Virus record (IMG/VR): IMGVR_UViG_3300044638_003367 | Coordinates: 1 to 24,515 of that record | DNA from: a virus | Strand: one strand, 5' to 3' | DNA length: 24,515 nt | Shown: piece after piece, positions 11,916-24,485 of the stretch | Numbering within the stretch: the stretch's first letter is position 1 | Layout of the letters: every line of letters starts with the position of its first letter | Notes under the pieces: generated by a model | The model's input: the letters and a program-made list of their open reading frames with translations, nothing else | Told to the model about the DNA's origin: nothing | Databases searched by the model: none | Position numbers and translations under genes: made by a program

Positions 11916-14900
11916 TTATACTCCGAATCTGTTGCGAGTGGAGTTAAAGTTTTGCTGTATTTCTGCTTTTGTTAAGGCGCGATCATACACACGAACCATT
12001 GCAATACTACTATTAAACTCGTAGTCTGTACCCATATAGGTGTAGTGATCTGTTAGGTTTGCACGATTACCAATGTTTACTGATGGTAGCGAATACCTTT
12101 CATTTCCAGTATATGTTACCGTGGTTACATTTGTTCCGTTTGCATAGATTTCATACCGTGTATTATTTGCTGTTGCATTGTAAGTGGACACAAAAACCAA
12201 ATGTATCGGCTTACCATTAAAGGTTCCCCAACTAGACGGAACACTCCATGTGACATTTGTTTGTGCACCCGAAGTATTTTGCGACCACAATACCACACTA
12301 GTCGAAGCAATTGAAAAATACGGAAGACCACCAGCACCACAGAACATATTGGTACCAGTAGTGGATGGGGGTGCTGTTACCCACACCTCCCATGTCTTGG
12401 TTCCAATATTACTAATATCAGAAAATACAGAACCCGATGTAATAATCGCGTGCGACTTGCCGTTGAACACCAACTGACCACCGTTTACGGAACTGTATTG
12501 TGGTTTTCCTATAACCGAACTAATAGAACCAGTCGTACTCAAATCGTACACAGTGTTTGGAGTATTGTTCAGCAAATCCTCAATGCTTGGCTCAGTGCCG
12601 TCCACCAAATCAATACGAGGACGCAGGAATTGCACTTCTGTTCCTGGAGTACTGCTGCCGTACAGGAATACTCTCATAGCAAGTTGTCCTAAAGTTCCGT
12701 CAAAAATATAATCTGCACTCGTAGAAGAGGAGGTTGTAGCGTAAGGAGCAGTACCATCAGCAATGGTGTAATATCCGCTTGCTGTATCATTAGCACCAAT
12801 TGCAGTTCCTAATGGATGCACATGACCAACCACAAGAACCCAAGTATTTTGTTTACCCGTATATGCAGTACTACTTGTTCCGTCTGCTGCGAAATAAGGA
12901 TTTGTCTCTACTACTCCTGTTGATTTGGTTTTCAATCCAGTTGATCTTGGTCCAAAGTACACAGTGCCGCTACCAAGAACTTTTCGATTTACCCAAACAG
13001 AAAAACGATACTTTTTAGTCATATCAACAGCAATAGGTGTGGTATCAAACCCTCCATTGGGGTTGTATACGATATTAGTAGCGTTGGAGGAATGATTTTT
13101 TCCCCTCCATCCTAGTTCAACATTTCCCCAAGGATTAGTTAACCGTTCCACTGAATTGGCGTTTGCTGTTCCCAATTTATTCCACGGAAACGGGTAACTA
13201 GAATTGGTTCGTGTGGCGGTGCCAGCAATATCACTGGTGACATGATACGGAAGAAGTTGTACTCGACCAATTCTGTATTTTACCCCTGCTCCCAAACCAC
13301 TCAAACCAACAAGTGTGGCTGGTGTTGCGGTTGGAGTAGTTCCAGGTTCAGTTTTTACTCTAGTAATTTTATACCATCCACCCCCAAGATCCTCAAATCC
13401 CGTTGCTGGTTGCTGGTCGGGAGTGCTGCTTGCTGTGTAAATATACACATTAGGACGAGTTATAACTTCACCATCATCCCTACGAATAGTGGCAGTAAAT
13501 GTCCATGTTGTGGATGTTAGTGTGGAATTCTCCCATGCAGGATTTGGTAGTGAACTATTACCAAGATATAGATTTCCACTGCTACCAGTTGTTGCTTCAA
13601 AAACTTCATCTGTACCTAATCCCACACCAGTTTGGGTAACAAGGGTTACCGAATCCACTAAAGGACTGGCTGGTATAGTATCTCTTCTCCACATTGATGG
13701 AGTCAGGGGAGCAAGCACATTGATTGGGGTTGGAGTCATCTGATACTCACGAAGAATATCAGTACTAATTCCGTCTTTGTAAGAACCAATAGACGCAGTT
13801 TGTCCAGCGTCAAAAGCGTAAATAAGATTTTTAGAAACAAGCCACTCGTTTCCTGATGGTGGACTGATTGAAGCAATCTGTCTGCCTGTTACTCTAGATC
13901 TATTCAATCCCTCATCACCATTCAAGAACACCCCAATCTTGTTTGAAGAGTCTCGAACGGCTTCTCCAATACAAACTCCCAAGCACGCCCCCGAAACATG
14001 GGGATCGTAAACAATAGAATTCTGTCCAGCAGCAGTATTGTCTCCACAAGGACGGAATCCAAAAGCACCAGCAGGAGGAAGTGATGCACCAGGATACATG
14101 AGTTTTCCGTTTGGAAGAATCGTATAGTAAGCACCTGTCTGCTGCGATAGAGTTCTGTCCTGCTGATTATACGAACGACTGAACAGCACAGAGTCAAATC
14201 GCAAAGATGGAGTTGCAGACAAGTCACAATTTGTATTACGAGAAGCAAGCAGTCCGTATCCGTAACTCAACCCATCAATAGTTGATTTATACACAACAAA
14301 TATATCTGCATCATCAGTAACGGTTAGAGGTTTGGTAAGGTACATATGCTGACCAGTAAGAACTGCCGCAGCACTGCTGCCTGTTCCTGTGGTGTATCCA
14401 AGACCAACCACCGAACCAAAAGTTACTCCTGCGTAAGTTGAAGCAGGAGAAAACACTAGTCCTCCGTTAAACGAAACTCCCGTAACTCCACCGTATCCTG
14501 CTGTTTGCAGGGTGGGGCGAAGTTTGTCAAGCGTGACTCCTGCGTACACACGAGCATTCATATTTGCAGTAGACACAAAATTCGGGACAACAGGATTTCC
14601 GTTATACGAAAGATCCAAAAGAGTAACTGATGTTTTTGGATCACTAGAAGAGGCGGTTGCATAGAATGAAGAGTCAAAGTAGAATGTGCGTCCATACCCT
14701 GCAAAAACGGTTCGCTTTACAACTCCATCAACCCGATACACGATATTTGGGTCAATGTACTCTACCTCACAAACAGTATTATCGTAGGCAGAATAGTTAC
14801 TTGCCCCATTAGTAATCGAATTGCGACTATTACCCGATTCATACACATAATATTGCCTTGGTATGGTATACTGCGTACTGTTTGACCCATACGAGTACAC

Positions 14901-16754
14901 AGCGTAGTCGATATTGTCATAGTAATTACTTGCAGCAGGATTGGCGGCAAGTCCCATCATAAACAGACGACCGTGTGTGAACCCCCCACACAATCCGTTT
15001 GCCACGAAAGCCAATTTAGTTACTGGATTTGTGGAGCGAACAGATTCTGAAAAATATCCACCTGCGGCTGTTTGTGTAATATGTGCAATACCGTTCCATT
15101 TGCTCCATGTTGGGGGGACAGCGTGATTGCCACTCTTGGAAGCATCTCTCCAAATATCCATGCTTGCACCATTAGCAACTGAGCCGACCACGCCAATATT
15201 TTCAGGCTTGAGCCACAAGACAAGTCCATCCATACCCGCAGGAGTAAGATTGCTTTCTCTGTTACGATAGAATGCACCAGTGCTGCCAAGAGGAGCACCA
15301 ATAGGATTGTGTGAGGTACGACCACCTTCAGGCACATAGCAGTAGGTGTACCCCAAAGAGGTTCCCACAAATACTGTTCCTACAGGAGTGGTCTGTCCGT
15401 TTGGTCCTACTTCAGTGGTGCTACCAATATACGGGTTGTATCCAAGTGGATACAGGTCACCTGTGGCTCCAAGCCAATATCCAGACAGCGTATTGCCGTT
15501 GGCGCGAAGATCCAATGTGGTTCCACTCGTATACGGAGTGTATCGTCCAATAAGAGGAATCTCATAGAAAGTGGCTTGGGATGATGTGGTGAGAGCATTA
15601 TCAATAGATCTATTCAGGAGGATAGAACCAAACATCCGCATACCTGTAGGATGAATAATGTTTTTCAATACACCAAAATATATGTCCAAGGATACCGCAG
15701 ACTTGAGTTCATATGAAAAATCCTGATAGTAGTGACCGTCTTGAATCTTCTTGTTTGAAGACATCTTGCCGCGATTTCCTGTAAAGTATCCAGGATAATT
15801 TGTAACAGCACTACGCAAACCAATCACCTTTGCGGTTCGTGATCCTGTTTCACTAACAATGTTAAGAACAAGATCTCCTGTGTAGTTTACACCCGAATTG
15901 GAAATTCCAATCTTCTTAACCCCGCCAGCAAGACCTACTTGATCAATCTTGGCAGAAAATCCTGTGCCTCTAGAATCAGTAACCGTTACCAAATCACCCA
16001 CACGATATCCACTACCAGGAAGTTCAACGAAAAACTCACCAATAACAGGATACGCTGTTTCTGTCCACTCGGTGCCGTCTTTGGAAAGAACAACATTAGC
16101 ATTAGGAGAAAATTCACCAGCGATATCAGTAATAAAGAACTCAGTGATTGGAACTCCGTTAAAGGAGTACTGCACCACCGAATTAACAAATGCACTTGCA
16201 GTTAACTGCACGCCGCTGAATTGGTAGATGTTTCCGTTTACAGCACCAAACAGATCAGTTCCGTTTTGCACAGTGGTTTTAATGGATCGTGGTTCTGTCC
16301 ATACACCATCAGACACCTTGAGAATATCGTTCTTGGGGTAATAGAATTCCAGATCACTGTCGTATAGAATACGAAACAGGAACTTGTATGAACTCTCTGT
16401 GCCCTTGTTTCCGTAGAAGTCACGAATCTTTTTCAGCAGTGTTTTTTTGTTTGGCTTGTTACCGCTGGCATTTTCTGCAAACATTTCAGGAAACGAATCA
16501 AGATAGGTGTTCTTGAAATGGGAGTAAAACTCATCAAGGTTCAGATCTACATCCCATACCGTGTCCAACTTGGATGTTAAGTACCCAACATTGCCTTCCT
16601 TTTCCAACCACTCGTAGTACGCCTTTATAAACAAAACTAGTTTTGGATAGTCTGTCTGCACAAACAACGGAAACTGCTCCTTGATGAAAGGAGACAGCAG
16701 ATCTTCTAGGGCTTCTGCTTCAGTGTTTAAAATAATATTGTTTATAGCAGCCAT
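11916..16754 (-). CDS. 7: gp7-like baseplate wedge protein with C-terminal carbohydrate-binding modules, 1612 aa
   Basis: The first ~390 residues correspond to the C-terminal part of T4 gp7, which joins wedge to hub. FPLFVQTDYPKLVLFIKAYY (28-47) corresponds to the region before it, KGTESSYKFLFRILY (117-131) aligns with KGIEASYKFLFKVLY of T4 gp7, and KNIIHPTGMRMFGSILL (about 365-381) aligns with the VHPVGFGFIAITLL segment. The long N-terminal part of T4 gp7 is absent. From about 508 (MDGLVLWLKPENIG) a LamG-like region begins. Two jelly-roll modules follow: about 1065-1180 (TWTFTATIRRDDG, then GGGWYKITRVK) and about 1240-1410 (KYRFSVWVNRK to PRIDLVDGTEPSI). A terminal LamG domain at about 1425-1612 ends in AMVRVYDRALTKAEIQQNF. 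ATG at 16754 is 1 nt after the gp6 stop, with AAGGG upstream. The core assignment is firm; glycan binding by the modules is inferred. Confidence 0.87.
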   Translation of the reverse strand: MAAINNIILNTEAEALEDLLSPFIKEQFPLFVQTDYPKLVLFIKAYYEWLEKEGNVGYLTSKLDTVWDVDLNLDEFYSHFKNTYLDSFPEMFAENASGNKPNKKTLLKKIRDFYGNKGTESSYKFLFRILYDSDLEFYYPKNDILKVSDGVWTEPRSIKTTVQNGTDLFGAVNGNIYQFSGVQLTASAFVNSVVQYSFNGVPITEFFITDIAGEFSPNANVVLSKDGTEWTETAYPVIGEFFVELPGSGYRVGDLVTVTDSRGTGFSAKIDQVGLAGGVKKIGISNSGVNYTGDLVLNIVSETGSRTAKVIGLRSAVTNYPGYFTGNRGKMSSNKKIQDGHYYQDFSYELKSAVSLDIYFGVLKNIIHPTGMRMFGSILLNRSIDNALTTSSQATFYEIPLIGRYTPYTSGTTLDLRANGNTLSGYWLGATGDLYPLGYNPYIGSTTEVGPNGQTTPVGTVFVGTSLGYTYCYVPEGGRTSHNPIGAPLGSTGAFYRNRESNLTPAGMDGLVLWLKPENIGVVGSVANGASMDIWRDASKSGNHAVPPTWSKWNGIAHITQTAAGGYFSESVRSTNPVTKLAFVANGLCGGFTHGRLFMMGLAANPAASNYYDNIDYAVYSYGSNSTQYTIPRQYYVYESGNSRNSITNGASNYSAYDNTVCEVEYIDPNIVYRVDGVVKRTVFAGYGRTFYFDSSFYATASSSDPKTSVTLLDLSYNGNPVVPNFVSTANMNARVYAGVTLDKLRPTLQTAGYGGVTGVSFNGGLVFSPASTYAGVTFGSVVGLGYTTGTGSSAAAVLTGQHMYLTKPLTVTDDADIFVVYKSTIDGLSYGYGLLASRNTNCDLSATPSLRFDSVLFSRSYNQQDRTLSQQTGAYYTILPNGKLMYPGASLPPAGAFGFRPCGDNTAAGQNSIVYDPHVSGACLGVCIGEAVRDSSNKIGVFLNGDEGLNRSRVTGRQIASISPPSGNEWLVSKNLIYAFDAGQTASIGSYKDGISTDILREYQMTPTPINVLAPLTPSMWRRDTIPASPLVDSVTLVTQTGVGLGTDEVFEATTGSSGNLYLGNSSLPNPAWENSTLTSTTWTFTATIRRDDGEVITRPNVYIYTASSTPDQQPATGFEDLGGGWYKITRVKTEPGTTPTATPATLVGLSGLGAGVKYRIGRVQLLPYHVTSDIAGTATRTNSSYPFPWNKLGTANANSVERLTNPWGNVELGWRGKNHSSNATNIVYNPNGGFDTTPIAVDMTKKYRFSVWVNRKVLGSGTVYFGPRSTGLKTKSTGVVETNPYFAADGTSSTAYTGKQNTWVLVVGHVHPLGTAIGANDTASGYYTIADGTAPYATTSSSTSADYIFDGTLGQLAMRVFLYGSSTPGTEVQFLRPRIDLVDGTEPSIEDLLNNTPNTVYDLSTTGSISSVIGKPQYSSVNGGQLVFNGKSHAIITSGSVFSDISNIGTKTWEVWVTAPPSTTGTNMFCGAGGLPYFSIASTSVVLWSQNTSGAQTNVTWSVPSSWGTFNGKPIHLVFVSTYNATANNTRYEIYANGTNVTTVTYTGNERYSLPSVNIGNRANLTDHYTYMGTDYEFNSSIAMVRVYDRALTKAEIQQNFNSTRNRFGV

Positions 16755-18582: not shown

Positions 18583-18989
18583 CAGCGCACCCTTTCTAGG
18601 ACAACCGAGATTCTATCTTGTTTGCCAACGGCTTGTATGGCGTATTCCACCACAACCGTATAGTAGTTTTCGTTTGGACTTGCGGTCACATCCACCACCA
18701 CCTGACCAACTCGTGGCTCGTGGTTGCGGATAGTCATCAAAATTCTGTCGTGAATTTCCATTGTGGTAATGGCATCAATTGGTTCAAACAGTAGTGAGCG
18801 CAGCGATCCACCAATGGTGGGTTGAAACAACCGTTCACCGAAAGCGGTGGACATCAAATTGCGTATAGATGTGCGGACAGCCAAATCATCCCTGATGGTG
18901 AGCAGATCACCTGTCTTGGGATTCTTTGTAAAGGTGGGATCTATATCAGTAAATATAGGTTTCCCGCTGCCTGTGATCTGTAGTGCCAT
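18582..18989 (-). CDS. 25: Baseplate wedge subunit gp25 (GPW/gp25 family), 135 aa
   Basis: A homologue of T4 gp25, the small lysozyme-like-fold wedge protein that triggers sheath polymerisation. It is found in nearly all contractile injection systems. The motif NHEPRVGQVVVDV (about 89-101) contains the conserved EPR signature. The upstream segment with AVRTSIRNLMSTAFGERLFQ and PTIGGSLRSLLFEPID also fits the family. At 135 residues it is close to T4 gp25 (132). Its ATG at 18989 overlaps the preceding stop by one base (TAATG), without a strong ribosome site, so it is probably translated by coupling. It should bind gp6 and the first sheath ring. Confidence 0.95.
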   Translation of the reverse strand: MALQITGSGKPIFTDIDPTFTKNPKTGDLLTIRDDLAVRTSIRNLMSTAFGERLFQPTIGGSLRSLLFEPIDAITTMEIHDRILMTIRNHEPRVGQVVVDVTASPNENYYTVVVEYAIQAVGKQDRISVVLERVR

Positions 18990-19657
18990 TAGTTGTGTTC
19001 TACTTTGTATGAAAGGTGTGTGTTTATTTCGTGGACGCTGCTGTCAATTACTTCTTCTAGGGTTTTTTGCTTTATTCCCTCTGCCTCAATTTCATCTAGT
19101 TGGTCTGCCCCACACCAATGGCAGCACAAGAACCCAAGTGGAGTCAGTCCATCAGCGCATCGTAAAGGGGTAATACTAAAGAATTCCACATTATTTATCT
19201 CAAGTCCAGAACGAAAAGACGATGGGGGTAGCGTACTTACTGATATAATTTTACTTGCAGACTCATCCATGACCCGAATTATGTCAACATAACGAGTCAG
19301 CAGCACATCCTGTGACTCCAATATCATGCTGATGATTCCTGATACACACGATTCGTGAGTAACAGAAAACCGCTTGATTGATGTGCCGTCTGAAAAATTA
19401 CCACCATTGTGGAATTGAAATACTAGGCAACGGGATGCCCGAACCGTTACCCGTAGTTCGGTAAGCAGTTCATGTATTTGGCTGTGGCGATGGACAAACT
19501 TCTGTTCTTTTGACAACGACCACTTGAGTGAAATCTTCTTTCGCCGAATCACTCCAACTACACCCAAAACTAAACCCACAGCAAAAACACCCGCAGACTC
19601 CCCTATGGTTACCCATATATCTCTAGCCGCTGATATATTTTCGGAACTAAGCATCAT
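18989..19657 (-). CDS. Single-pass membrane protein with GAF-like cytoplasmic domain, 222 aa
   Basis: One hydrophobic segment (about 16-37, ESAGVFAVGLVLGVVGVI) is followed by RRKK. By the positive-inside rule this predicts a short N-terminus outside and the rest in the cytoplasm. Residues about 60-200 contain IHELLTELRVTVRASRCLVF, QFHNGGNFSDGTSIKRFS and THESCVSGI, a pattern resembling GAF-type sensory domains with a QFHNG signature. No catalytic output domain is present. The gene starts in an ATGA overlap with the previous gene (ATG 19657), with GGAGG 12 nt upstream. It ends overlapping the gp25 start. It is unlike a baseplate component. It could be a membrane-located assembly, lysis-timing or superinfection factor, or a conserved phage protein of unknown role. 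The GAF-like call is from pattern recognition only. Confidence 0.68.
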   Translation of the reverse strand: MMLSSENISAARDIWVTIGESAGVFAVGLVLGVVGVIRRKKISLKWSLSKEQKFVHRHSQIHELLTELRVTVRASRCLVFQFHNGGNFSDGTSIKRFSVTHESCVSGIISMILESQDVLLTRYVDIIRVMDESASKIISVSTLPPSSFRSGLEINNVEFFSITPLRCADGLTPLGFLCCHWCGADQLDEIEAEGIKQKTLEEVIDSSVHEINTHLSYKVEHN

Positions 19658-20448
19658 CGGTTGCTAGTGCCTCCACCGCCAAAGCCAGCATTGTTGACGG
19701 TATTTAAAAATTCAGGACTCACTAGACTACCGTTCAGAGTGCTTCCAAGTTTAAAACACGGATCAGTACTAGCCTCATTAATCAGATTTGCAAGGGAGTT
19801 GATACTAGTATACTTTGCGATAAATGCCGCTGCTTCTGCCTGTGAGGCAGCGGCTTCATCCATTATGCCATTTAATTTACTGTTTGCTTCGTCTATTGCC
19901 GCAAACGCACTATCCAATCCCGACTGCAAATCCTTTACCTTGTCAGCAAGATCTGATCCTGATCCATCACTAAATTTGTTCAGGACTTTTTCAAGATCAA
20001 CATTGGCATTCACTGCATAGTCAATGGAAAATTGTCCGTTGTTGTTCACCACATTTAATCCCACTCCAATATCAAGTCCCTCAATACCAAGAGCGCAATT
20101 CAGTTCTCCAAACAGGCTCATGGAACTAATAATGCTCGTCAGGTATCGAGGATCGGTAAAGCGAGCAGATTCTGCTGCAAAAGCATCAACAATACCTGCT
20201 TGTGAGTCCATAGAGGTTTTCATGCGCTGTAGAGACGGTAGTGCGCTCGTCAATGCACCTGTTGGATCTAAAGGAGCCGCTGCAATCAAATCAGCCAAGC
20301 GACCACCATTCCTGCCACCTAGTTGTCGTGCAAGTCCTGCTGCTGCTGCGTTGGGATCCTTCAACATATCCTTGGTCAAGCCAAAGTTAAGAACTCCCTT
20401 TTCGCCATCAGTTAATGTTTGCTTGCATGGACATTCTGGATTTGCCAT
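19654..20448 (-). CDS. Unrecognised structural-type protein with helical segment, 264 aa
   Basis: ATG at 20448 has AAGGAG 5 nt upstream, a strong start. The N-terminus has a Cys-Pro-Cys motif (MANPECPCKQ). A predicted helical part spans 20-60, and another around 70-115 (LQRMKTSMDSQAGIVDAFAA). A conserved-looking beta stretch follows: GLDIGVGLNVVNNNGQFSID (about 124-143). Residues 150-215 (LADKVKDLQSGLDSAFAAID) are alanine-rich and look helical or coiled coil. The tail is rich in glycine (GFGGGG). I do not recognise a named family. Its position between the PAAR spike protein and the gp25-gp6 wedge block suggests a hub-associated or baseplate assembly role. This is inference from context. Its stop overlaps the next start by 4 nt. 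Confidence 0.7.
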   Translation of the reverse strand: MANPECPCKQTLTDGEKGVLNFGLTKDMLKDPNAAAAGLARQLGGRNGGRLADLIAAAPLDPTGALTSALPSLQRMKTSMDSQAGIVDAFAAESARFTDPRYLTSIISSMSLFGELNCALGIEGLDIGVGLNVVNNNGQFSIDYAVNANVDLEKVLNKFSDGSGSDLADKVKDLQSGLDSAFAAIDEANSKLNGIMDEAAASQAEAAAFIAKYTSINSLANLINEASTDPCFKLGSTLNGSLVSPEFLNTVNNAGFGGGGTSNR

Positions 20449-20500
20449 ATGTACTCCTTATAGAATAGGTATATCCAATATTGTTGTGTTGCACGATTGC
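20449..20500 (-). other. Largest intergenic gap (52 nt), with ribosome site
   Basis: This is the only gap above 15 nt in the window. On the minus strand it holds an 8-nt palindrome (CAATATTG), an AT-rich stretch ending TATTCTATAAGG and the AAGGAG ribosome site at 20454-20459. The AT-rich part resembles the T4 late promoter TATAAATA only loosely (CTATAAGG), so I do not call a promoter. It might hold a weak late promoter or mRNA-processing site for the gp25-gp6 block. Confidence 0.3.
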
Positions 20501-23500
20501 CTAACTTGGCAAGCCGTGAACCAATCCGATGATGTTTTTGCTGTAATAATCGTTTGGATAAGTGGCTCCTGCCCAACCTTCCGCTACGGCAGAAACAGGG
20601 GCGGCAGTAGCGGAAAACGCATCAAGCATTTGAATAAATGCATCAAAAGACGGCTGCATAACATTGTTTACCCAAAAATTACGCCCCTCCATCGTCCAAT
20701 ACTTCATTCCATTTATAGAGTTTTCTAGATATGCGGTTGGTCCAGCCGCCCATTGATCTACATTAAAGGTTAGTCCATTCCAAGGCGGGAAAGGACCCCG
20801 ATTTCCCCCCTCCACTCTAATTTGTGGATTCGCAGTAAGCAAATCTGTTCTATAGGTATGAATCGAAGGATCGCTTGTATCGTGCACAGATTTTTCAGTA
20901 TAAGCAAACCAATTTGGATCAAAAACAATGGTATTATAGTTATTCAACCTCACACCAACCTCAGTGGGACGATTGGGCTGTAGTAGATTTTTATAGTGCC
21001 GATGATGATCGGAAAGTCCATACAGATAGAATGTTGCGGCATGAGGAGAATAGTATGTGTAATCGTCAGGCATTCCCCACATATCGTGAGCAGTTGCACC
21101 GTTTACGGTGGAATGCCACGCACGATACGGATCATTGGTTATGCCACTGCTCGTCATATAAAAAGACTGCCAGTCTAGGCGATGTATTTTTGGAGATTCT
21201 GTATTACTGACCATTTCGTCTCTAGCACCAAGCCACGCAACAGTTGCGGGAAGAGCAGTTTTTGTAAGTTGGTTGCTTGTCCACAAATAGTGTTCGGTGG
21301 ATGTAAAATTGTTATACAACAATCCACTACTTACAATTGGACCAGCACTTCCTGCTATACCACTTATTTCGTAGATTATTCGATTATGTCTCTTTGGATA
21401 TCTTGCTTCTAGATACACATCTATGTCTGCCTCTTTAAGTTTGGTCAGCACATACCAATCACTAAGTTCTAGCGCATCGGAAAGATAAGACGCATCACGA
21501 TCTGTTCCCGCCGAAGAACTTGTATCCACAATGCTTCTATACAAGGTAATACTGTCTGGTGTTGCAATATTAGAACCAACGTCCATACCAATAGTCAATT
21601 TGCCGCCGTTTGGTATTTTGCTTTTCATGCTCTTGAAGGTATCAATCATGCCGTCTAGTTTTAAGTAATAGGTGGCATCTTTTTGAGCGGGTGTTCCTGA
21701 TAAAGATCGCCAATATTTGCAAGCCTTTCTGCGATAATCGTAATATGCCACATTGGTAGGAACATATAGAAACACATTACATGGTTCAAGTATCTGTGTC
21801 TTGTTAGTTTGAGGAGTCATGTTTGCATCAACAGGAATCATTTTTCCTTCAATCAATGAATTGATTGTTTCAGAGAATCCTTTCCATCTTGCAGGATTGG
21901 TGTGCGTTACTCCTGGAGTGCTCGCAGTATAGGCATCCTTTTGTATTTGGTAAGAAAGAAAGAATGATCCTGCGTTTCCGTTTGCGTTATTTGCGCTTTC
22001 TGCACCATATGAGCCATACGGAAAATGAAAATGAAAACTTCTTGCACCCCACCTATACCATGTAATCACAGATTCATATATGGCATTATGCCAAGGGCTA
22101 GAAACGGATGGATTTGCAGGATTGTTTTCCCAAGGAAATGCTCGGATTCCTTGTCCGCTTCTGGGATTTCCTTGAAAATAAGAAATAAAGTCTAGTGTCC
22201 AATTACTCCATGTTATTCCTTGAGGATCCGTTGGATCTGCAACTGCGGGAATACACACAGCGTAATACTGATTTTTGTAGTTTTGTGTTATGGAATCTAT
22301 AGGAGGTGTTATTGAATATTGTGGAATATCTGAAGTATTTGTTCCAACCCAAGCCCCACCATCGGAATCAACAGCAAGGGCATTTCCCGCGCTGTCGTAC
22401 AGAACAACACCTGGTTTTGGTGTTACTCTCCAGACATATTTTTTATTTGCGGTGGGAGATCCACTCACCACATAAGAGGTCAGAAAATCTATTCTAGTTT
22501 TATTCAATGAATGTATACGGAATCCACCAGTCCGATCATTTATATCTCGGATAATGGTATTCATCGTACTTAAAAAGTTATTTGTTTTTCCTGTGGTATC
22601 ATTCCCACCATCCCAAATGTGCAACATCTCGCATCCAGTAAGAATGATGTGCCTTATGTTTTCCCAGTACAATTTTCTACCGATGGTTTCGCCAATGCTT
22701 GTATCGGTAATCCACTTTGGATTGAATGCTGCTCCTCCTTGAGTCCATTCAGGAGAAACAACCCACGGTCGTATAGGAACAGTGGGAGATTCGTTTTTTG
22801 CAATTCTAATGTTAGTAAGAAGTAAAAGAAACTGACTCCACGCATCCGCGGTAATTCCTGAAACGGTTGATCCAGCATTCGTTCGGATTATTCGTGTTGT
22901 GTCTGTTCTAGAAATACCGTACACATTAGGAAAATTCCATCCCGCATACAACGCTGGAGAAATAGCATCACCAACATACGATGGATATATCATAGGATGT
23001 CCATTTTGTTCATACAAGTCAGCAGTTTCTCCAGCCACCACAGAATTAAAATTGCTGAATTTTGTCACGCCCCATTGCTGCTTTAGCGTGTTGTAGACAA
23101 ATTGGTTCAAAAACTCTGTTTCAATACCAAAGACTGCACGATTCCAATACAAATACTGTCTGTTTAATTGAGGATGGAATACTCTGTTTTTAATATCGTC
23201 AAACGATAAACCGTATTTGCCGTTGACAGTATATAAGTTATTAAAACTTGGAGAGTTATACCACGGTGCATTTGATCGGGGATCGTTTGTTATTCCAGGA
23301 AGAGTTTTGCTCCAGTTTGCACCATCAAAGAACCCGAATGGGAGATATTCTCCAGGAGGCATATCGCCAATCACATAATCTGGCTGACATCCTTTTAGTT
23401 TTAGATCAGATATAACTCTTGTGAGTTCATTGCTCAGGCTGATCCCTGAGTTTTCAGCCCACAAAATCTGACTGCCCGACCAAGCATCGGTTCCGCTAGG

Positions 23501-24172
23501 ATATCTGTCACGGATATCCTCATAAATTGGACCCTGATCATACCGATACAAACGGATTGCTCTCTTGCCTTGAGGCAAAGCATTTATTTTTTCAGGAATT
23601 GCTTGATACCGAGTAGAGGCAAACATCTGATCTACAGTATCATAACTATAACCAAGATTCCCCCGTGTTCCCATGATGGAAATCATAGGCTTTACATATT
23701 CGTATTTGTTTACATCTCCATACGATTCGGTTGCATAAAATGGAACAGGTGGTTGAGTATCAGTTAGTGTACCGTTGTCTGTTGCTCCAAAATACGCTGC
23801 CCAGACAGGAATCGCACGGGTCGCTGCTGCGGTTGAACCAAGAGAAGAAATTGGGTTTGCGTACACACGACTGCCTCTTCGTGTTTTAGTTGATGGACCT
23901 CTTGCACCAGACCCAACACCAAAACTAGAAGAACTAGTTGCAAAATGTCCGCAACTTGCTTGACTTGTTGTTGTGCATACAGGGATTCCATTCACAACAA
24001 AATTTGGACTACCTGCAACCATGACCGCGTTATTGTGTGGGCTGTCTCCGTGAGACTGCACAGGATTTCCTTCGACCGCAACAGGAAACCCATCCAAATA
24101 AAAATTTGGATTTCCTACAAGTATAGTTCCACCAGCAGTATCAAGATATGCACGCAATATTCCATTTGCCAT
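20501..24172 (-). CDS. PAAR-domain spike-tip protein with large aromatic-rich (TIM-barrel-like) extension, 1223 aa
   Basis: Residues 1-90 form a PAAR domain, the zinc-stabilised cone that caps the central spike of contractile tails (T4 gp5.4 type). It shows the paired motifs VGNPNFYLDGFPVA and AGSPNFVVNGIPVC. H41, H46, C74 and H76 are candidate zinc ligands. The start at 24172 is chosen because GAGGAG lies 6 nt upstream; a frame-compatible ATG at 24214 lies inside the previous gene. After a short linker come about 1100 residues with more than 30 tryptophans. Several helix-then-strand units end in acidic or aromatic residues: PDYVIGDMP, RPWVVSPEW (about 467-475), HIILTGCEMLHIWDGG and RSFHFHFPYG. 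This pattern suits a (beta/alpha)8 glycoside-hydrolase-like barrel, with a beta-sandwich insert near YVWRVTPKPG. I recognise no specific enzyme family. The PAAR call is firm; the enzyme idea is inference. Confidence 0.84.
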   Translation of the reverse strand: MANGILRAYLDTAGGTILVGNPNFYLDGFPVAVEGNPVQSHGDSPHNNAVMVAGSPNFVVNGIPVCTTTSQASCGHFATSSSSFGVGSGARGPSTKTRRGSRVYANPISSLGSTAAATRAIPVWAAYFGATDNGTLTDTQPPVPFYATESYGDVNKYEYVKPMISIMGTRGNLGYSYDTVDQMFASTRYQAIPEKINALPQGKRAIRLYRYDQGPIYEDIRDRYPSGTDAWSGSQILWAENSGISLSNELTRVISDLKLKGCQPDYVIGDMPPGEYLPFGFFDGANWSKTLPGITNDPRSNAPWYNSPSFNNLYTVNGKYGLSFDDIKNRVFHPQLNRQYLYWNRAVFGIETEFLNQFVYNTLKQQWGVTKFSNFNSVVAGETADLYEQNGHPMIYPSYVGDAISPALYAGWNFPNVYGISRTDTTRIIRTNAGSTVSGITADAWSQFLLLLTNIRIAKNESPTVPIRPWVVSPEWTQGGAAFNPKWITDTSIGETIGRKLYWENIRHIILTGCEMLHIWDGGNDTTGKTNNFLSTMNTIIRDINDRTGGFRIHSLNKTRIDFLTSYVVSGSPTANKKYVWRVTPKPGVVLYDSAGNALAVDSDGGAWVGTNTSDIPQYSITPPIDSITQNYKNQYYAVCIPAVADPTDPQGITWSNWTLDFISYFQGNPRSGQGIRAFPWENNPANPSVSSPWHNAIYESVITWYRWGARSFHFHFPYGSYGAESANNANGNAGSFFLSYQIQKDAYTASTPGVTHTNPARWKGFSETINSLIEGKMIPVDANMTPQTNKTQILEPCNVFLYVPTNVAYYDYRRKACKYWRSLSGTPAQKDATYYLKLDGMIDTFKSMKSKIPNGGKLTIGMDVGSNIATPDSITLYRSIVDTSSSAGTDRDASYLSDALELSDWYVLTKLKEADIDVYLEARYPKRHNRIIYEISGIAGSAGPIVSSGLLYNNFTSTEHYLWTSNQLTKTALPATVAWLGARDEMVSNTESPKIHRLDWQSFYMTSSGITNDPYRAWHSTVNGATAHDMWGMPDDYTYYSPHAATFYLYGLSDHHRHYKNLLQPNRPTEVGVRLNNYNTIVFDPNWFAYTEKSVHDTSDPSIHTYRTDLLTANPQIRVEGGNRGPFPPWNGLTFNVDQWAAGPTAYLENSINGMKYWTMEGRNFWVNNVMQPSFDAFIQMLDAFSATAAPVSAVAEGWAGATYPNDYYSKNIIGLVHGLPS

Positions 24173-24178
24173 ATGGTA

Positions 24179-24184
24179 CTCCTC
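24179..24184 (-). promoter_or_regulatory. Ribosome binding site that fixes the PAAR gene start
   Basis: The minus strand reads GAGGAG, then 6 nt, then ATG at 24172. This is a strong site with standard spacing. It favours the start MANGILRAYL over the in-frame ATG 14 codons earlier, which lies within the coding end of the upstream gene and has no such site. Confidence 0.85.
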
Positions 24185-24485
24185 AAATATCAGTCGATCC
24201 AACAAACTCACCATTCGGAATAGACTTTGTAAAGGTATATGCAGATTTTACCTCATTCATTCCCGCAGCATCAATGACAGCAGGGGCAAACCACACATCA
24301 AAATCAAACACAGTGATGGTTCTTTCATCAAGAGGAACCTTATTGTCTATTCTTGCTTGTTCAGAAACATAGCCATCCAAAAGAACTGTACCTGTCTTGG
24401 CGGTATGATTTAGATTCAAAGTACGAATCTTCCAATATTGCGAATAGGTTCCTGTTGGATGTTGAATAATTTGTTGTAGTGCCAT
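24183..24485 (-). CDS. Small virion-associated protein, 100 aa
   Basis: ATG at 24485 is preceded by GGAG about 8 nt upstream, and the stop lies 10 nt before the PAAR start. The protein looks beta-rich: YWKIRTLNLNHTAKTGTVLL (18-37) and TITVFDFDVWF form strands. The C-terminus AYTFTKSIPNGEFVGSTDI resembles the ending 'AY..lK..pEF.gatDv' that I associate with small phage tail-region proteins. No function is established by the sequence. Its position directly ahead of the spike-tip gene suggests a small tail, fibre or baseplate accessory protein. The preceding 30 nt (24486-24515) hold only its ribosome site and nothing else that I can identify. Confidence 0.68.
   Translation of the reverse strand: MALQQIIQHPTGTYSQYWKIRTLNLNHTAKTGTVLLDGYVSEQARIDNKVPLDERTITVFDFDVWFAPAVIDAAGMNEVKSAYTFTKSIPNGEFVGSTDI

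Follow-up and report, generated by a model that had tools for sequence, protein, structure and literature searches.

A phage PAAR spike-tip protein with two large C-terminal modules, exchanged as a whole-gene cassette and possibly directed at host glycans

The spike tip of a phage tail is usually viewed as an inert point, and fusions of PAAR proteins to cargo are regarded as an invention of secretion systems. The window analyzed here, i.e., a stretch of 24,515 nucleotides comprising positions 1 to 24,515 of the IMG/VR virus record IMGVR_UViG_3300044638_003367, raises the question of what a phage does with a PAAR domain that is followed, in a single open frame, by about 1,130 further residues (residues 93–1223). 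The start codon of this gene (Table 1) is supported by a GAGG Shine–Dalgarno sequence 6–7 bases upstream and by the upstream gene, which terminates immediately before it. An alternative in-frame start at 24214, which would give a protein of 1237 residues, was judged less likely. A preliminary description of the gene, made from the DNA letters, had proposed a PAAR spike tip fused to one putative carbohydrate-active enzyme of TIM-barrel type.

Table 1. Positions of the fused gene, its parts, and its surroundings in the window
Feature	Position	Strand	Remarks
PAAR-M1-M2 gene	20501..24172	−	1223 aa; ATG at 24172, stop ending at 20501
PAAR spike-tip domain, residues 1–92	23897..24172	−	PF05488, phrog_281, 6p1z; plain sister PAARs stop at ~87–92
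Linker, residues 93–120, fast-evolving	23813..23896	−	dN/dS 0.48 vs L002; low pLDDT at M1 start
Module M1, residues about 121–622	22307..23812	−	Alignments, model, Foldseek/VIA; predicted α/β part and C-terminal β-sandwich
Conserved acid D270	23348..23365	−	D-x-E in 9/12 relatives; D-M-P-P-G-E275 in window
Conserved M1 motif E504-x-x-R507-H508	22646..22663	−	Alignment of M1 copies
Module M2, residues 623–1223	20504..22306	−	601 aa; homologs in L088, L165, L166; without family match
3′ edge of exchanged block	20448..20449		~94% identity to plain-PAAR L003/L026 starts here, at next gene's start
Small upstream gene, phrog_5084	24183..24485	−	Common to window and fused-PAAR phage L013

Three independent libraries identify the N-terminal domain. 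Pfam PF05488 matches residues 12–75 with 35.6 bits (gathering cut-off, 27 bits; E 1.1e-8), phrog_281 matches with an E value of 7.8e-12, and the phiKZ gp163.1 spike tip (6p1z) matches residues 4–87 with an E value of 6.8e-14. Judged from sequence, residues 1–92 are a true PAAR domain, and this part of the preliminary description, a spike tip with a giant extension within one 1223-residue gene, is confirmed. His41, His46, Cys74, and His76 are invariant in the fused PAAR copies and are candidate zinc ligands; His76 is replaced by Asp in some plain relatives.

The window covers part of the genome of a T4-like contractile-tail phage, in which gp25, gp6, gp7-like, and gp8-like wedge genes come after the PAAR gene; the best named phages listed share less than 40% identity with the window gp6. 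The gp5 gene lies outside the end of the window; its features were therefore read from related contigs (L002 and L012). The gene order in the relatives is gp5 OB hub, a small gene, and PAAR, followed further on by gp25 and gp6. With gp5 placed by these relatives, the PAAR gene adjoins the gp5 hub and the gp25/gp6 wedge genes, a gene context like that of gp5.4. The small upstream gene is not the same throughout, since L002, L003, and L005 carry another one in the position that phrog_5084 occupies in the window and L013. In L002 and in the sister phages, including those with an unfused PAAR, the gp5 hub has an OB domain and lacks a lysozyme region. These hubs consist of about 370 residues with an OB domain and a β-helix (L012:4799–5905, L002:4662–5780, and L003:6534–7637), unlike those of T4 and Caulobacter phage Cr30 (702 residues), which have the lysozyme region.

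Other features of this region are variable as well. Extra genes lie between gp5 and PAAR in L008 (4475–7707) and L087 (1289–5499), encoding a collagen-like (G-x-y) protein and then a protein of 811 or 964 residues with no family assigned; these genes make the spike-tip locus look like a general site of insertion. Between PAAR and gp25, the window (18989–19657, minus strand) and the sister phages retain a 222-residue protein of phrog_14038 that is GAF-like in appearance and has a membrane segment at its N-terminus, which is odd for a baseplate operon. The gp7-like wedge protein (window 11916–16754, minus strand; 1612 residues) carries a C-terminal concanavalin/laminin-G-like lectin domain (PF13385, residues 1451–1600). 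It varies greatly in length and content among the sister phages, which gives this baseplate a second variable site of host contact.

Sequence searches with residues 93–1223 gave no match in Pfam, NCBIfam, or PHROGs and nothing credible in the PDB, but homologous loci reveal how these residues are organized. Both the window and L002 encode PAAR with the longer extension, whereas L011, L012, L013, and L087 encode PAAR with about 570 additional residues. The shorter extensions align with window residues ~121–622 and end there, which defines module M1; its relatives share 30–92% identity. The remainder, M2, was located in only three other contigs, L088 (61% identity), L165, and L166 (about 30% each), where it follows M1. 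Profile comparison shows no similarity between M1 and M2. The order of strands and helices suggested that M2 might be a repeat or a circular permutation of M1, but comparisons with doubled and reversed M2 profiles gave nothing above noise. M1 occurs without M2 in L011–L013 and L116, and the reading of the extension as one enzyme of 1,100 residues is therefore rejected. Taken together, the alignments divide the extension into two unrelated-looking modules. The single domain envisaged earlier does not stand; the preliminary description had recognized neither the two modules nor the presence/absence polymorphism, nor the exchange of the cassette. The tryptophan richness noted then is genuine, at 3.2–3.3% in either half of the extension. 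M1 matched no named GH or CAZy family in Pfam, NCBIfam, PHROGs, or PDB profile searches. Neither module has relatives among 50,697 named phage records searched with tblastn, none were confirmed in bacterial genomes by two scans of 84,980 species with limited sensitivity, and anti-phage defence families gave no match.

The fold of M1 was approached by structure prediction. A first, weaker AlphaFold model gave mixed structural matches, and a second one was built from ten sequences. The latter is a low-confidence model (pLDDT 57.7, pTM 0.56), in which the blocks with pLDDT above 80 are the C-terminal β-sandwich and some helices. Strands alternate with helices, although not all eight strands of a barrel are present, and the β-sandwich follows. 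In a Foldseek search against the PDB, ranks 1–27 are all occupied by barrel-type carbohydrate-active enzymes, including PslG/GH39, GH51, GH30, GH13, GH36, and GH5 members, with a best E value of 0.045, so that none is significant. Likewise, all 50 rows returned by VIA-align are barrel-type carbohydrate enzymes, with a best Z score of 6.6, which is below the level for trusting single matches; a BFVD search gave no significant match. Such a uniform list is unlikely by chance, but since no single match is significant, a glycoside-hydrolase-like, probably (β/α)8-like, fold is considered likely rather than established. The TIM-barrel carbohydrate enzyme proposed earlier is thus supported weakly, and for M1 only; M2 gave no family match.

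Conservation within M1 points in a similar direction, though less clearly. Asp265, Asp270, Asp402, Asp424, Glu504, Arg507, and His508 are conserved in all M1 copies reaching them, among twelve copies with identities down to 30%; four of these, Asp270, Asp402, Asp424, and Glu504, answer the preliminary concern that acidic residues might not be conserved at the candidate site. The same description had seen helix-to-strand units ending in acidic or aromatic residues. The alternation is indeed found in the M1 model, but Asp270 alone among the conserved acids lies at a predicted strand end, Glu504 being in a predicted helix. Moreover, the D-x-E motif is altered to D-x-P, with Glu at +5, in the window, L002, and L116. 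Catalysis by the window copy of M1 is accordingly uncertain in this model-based view, and a role restricted to binding is the main rival.

M1 is not confined to PAAR proteins. In L088, it belongs to a 1438-residue protein whose gene has gp5 on one side and a separate 95-residue PAAR gene on the other; the gp5 hub of this contig (L088:3444–5240), which adjoins the M1-M2 gene and the separate PAAR, has a Ser/Thr/Pro/Ala-rich, probably disordered C-terminal tail of ~250 residues. In L089, a gp7-like wedge protein carries M1 in its C-terminal part, where it splits another module, M3. In L113, one protein has M1 first and M3 after it. M3, of ~830 residues and unassigned family (L113:3710–7837 and L089:2701–7641), either pairs with M1 or hosts the M1 insert before its last ~70 residues. 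L116 encodes M1 as a stand-alone 525-residue gene between a sheath stabilizer gene and terminase-looking genes. The record of L024, a phage with a plain PAAR, contains a very distant M1, L164, which occupies the C-terminal half of a protein that begins with a long repeat-rich region. This protein (L164:1048–4674 in the 150-kb L024 record) has up to 1208 residues and a probably fibre-like N-terminus. Apart from it, a search of partial records from 32 related phages yielded no further M1.

How the fused gene came to its place is apparent from related loci, which were collected with gp6 relatives as landmarks. The majority of the sister phages carry a plain PAAR gene (48 related loci, 86–94 residues), ending within a few residues of the point where the window extension starts. 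Compared with L003 and L026, the window is 93.6–94.7% identical from the start codon of the next gene onward, but only 71% identical over the PAAR domain, and the 3.4 kb beyond PAAR have no match. Compared with L002, 90.8% identity begins at the ATG of the PAAR gene itself, and the upstream gene differs. In the PAAR tree, the fused PAAR domains group together (88/84, which is not decisive), whereas in the M1 tree the window M1 has the stand-alone copy of L116 as its closest neighbor, and the M1 of L011–L013 and L087 lies nearest to that of L088; a single clade for the M1 of fused PAARs is rejected (AU p 3.9e-6). Since grouping is seen for the fused PAARs and not for their M1s, and DNA identity stops at gene borders, the PAAR-M1-M2 gene is an exchangeable whole-gene cassette that is swapped between phages. 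The mosaic of the two trees indicates at least two events in which M1 inside the cassette was gained or replaced.

The breaks in identity to sister phages at gene borders are also what a chimeric assembly would produce, with a PAAR gene joined to an unrelated gene. Yet genes combining PAAR with M1, or with M1 and M2, occur in seven other independent contigs, and the gene is hence not an assembly accident. One of these, L002, has the same fusion behind a different upstream gene, its copy being truncated by the contig end, and PAAR-M1 is present in the six others. Furthermore, dN/dS against the 91% identical L002 copy is 0.06 for PAAR and 0.26 for M1, against 0.48 for the linker, i.e., PAAR and M1 are under purifying selection, which is weaker on the linker. 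With these low values and the independent contigs, a chimera is highly improbable.

We favor, at a probability of roughly 0.55, a PAAR-tip protein whose M1 cuts or at least binds glycans of the host envelope and which is exchanged whole. Judging from homology and gene order, the PAAR domain would cap the gp5 spike, and a flexible linker would hang M1 and M2 at the distal front of the tail axis. M1, most likely a GH-like barrel with a C-terminal β-sandwich, could then cut or at least bind a glycan of the host envelope, capsule, or wall when the baseplate contacts the cell, with M2 as a putative accessory module that often accompanies it. The cassette would represent an allele of the spike tip that replaces the plain PAAR when phages exchange it. 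T4 gp5 carries the tail lysozyme within gp5, placing a cell-envelope enzyme on the spike. Here, gp5 lacks this region, as read from the relatives, and the module sits on PAAR instead; any envelope-degrading activity would therefore come from elsewhere. Replacement of the missing gp5 lysozyme was considered as the role of the extension, but the plain-PAAR sisters lack the lysozyme region too, and the extension is thus not a simple substitute.

Among the other explanations, the most serious is that M1 and M2 have a hydrolase-like scaffold but no catalytic activity and serve as adhesin-like, glycan-binding modules, so that the spike tip would bear a receptor-binding head. The altered D-x-E of the window copy fits this view, as do the abundance of Trp and Tyr in M1 and M2 and the movement of M1 among baseplate and fibre-like proteins, in the manner of host-range modules. 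The retention of Asp270, Glu504, Arg507, and His508 in every M1 copy reaching them would be expected of an active site, though of a structural core as well, and we regard a purely adhesive role as unlikely. Less probable still is an effector that is injected and exerts its action in the host periplasm or cytoplasm. It is suggested by analogy with the cargo layout of type VI secretion, where the "evolved" PAAR, an N-terminal PAAR domain followed by a large extension, is standard (PMC8651086). The preliminary description had pointed to such fusions as well. Yet no toxin family matches the extension in Pfam or NCBIfam, two modules of 500–600 residues would be a large cargo, and M1 is also found on a wedge protein and a repeat-rich protein, from which injection is unlikely. 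A purely structural extension with no glycan role, such as a spike stabilizer or a baseplate plug, would agree with the lack of an assigned enzymatic family. However, the extension is missing from most close relatives sharing the baseplate genes, is exchangeable, and has its M1 on unrelated carriers, so that this explanation appears quite improbable.

The preferred glycan-directed protein can be placed among known systems. It resembles T4 gp5.4 and phiKZ gp163.1 in its PAAR fold, as judged by sequence, and in its proximity to gp5, gp25, and gp6 genes; these proteins have about 90–100 residues, whereas the window protein has 1,130 more. In a survey of jumbo phages, PAAR was found only as a stand-alone protein, unfused to any effector domain (PMC7824862). 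The PAARs in the inspected records of Dolphis, Psa21, and Cr30 likewise stand alone (86–90 residues), and searches of an open-access literature library gave no counterexample of a PAAR fusion in a phage. With evolved-PAAR effectors of type VI secretion, the window protein shares the C-terminal extension of PAAR, but it is encoded in the baseplate operon of a virus record with no secretion system, and its extension has no recognized toxin domain in Pfam or NCBIfam and is probably glycan-directed. The window protein is thus a phage-encoded PAAR fusion with a layout known from type VI secretion, while the phage PAARs in the survey and in the inspected records are stand-alone proteins. The best structural neighbors of the M1 model are barrel-type glycoside hydrolases with a C-terminal β-sandwich (PslG/GH39, GH30, GH51, GH27/36, and GH13), which differ from M1 in having no sequence similarity to it and match its model below significance in every case.

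A broader proposal, to which we assign slightly less than an even chance, is that contractile-tail phages have "evolved PAARs" of their own, in which the plain PAAR is swapped, as a whole-gene cassette, for one with large glycan-active modules from a mobile M1/M2/M3 toolkit on which wedge and fibre-like proteins draw as well. Neither of the large families M1 and M2 matched anything in the named phage records or protein-family libraries covered by the searches. If phages do load and swap modules on the tip, the fusion principle would exist on both sides of the relationship between phages and secretion systems. In that case, host range would be determined at the spike tip, and the tail axis would be a place to seek host-range determinants and new polysaccharide-acting enzymes.
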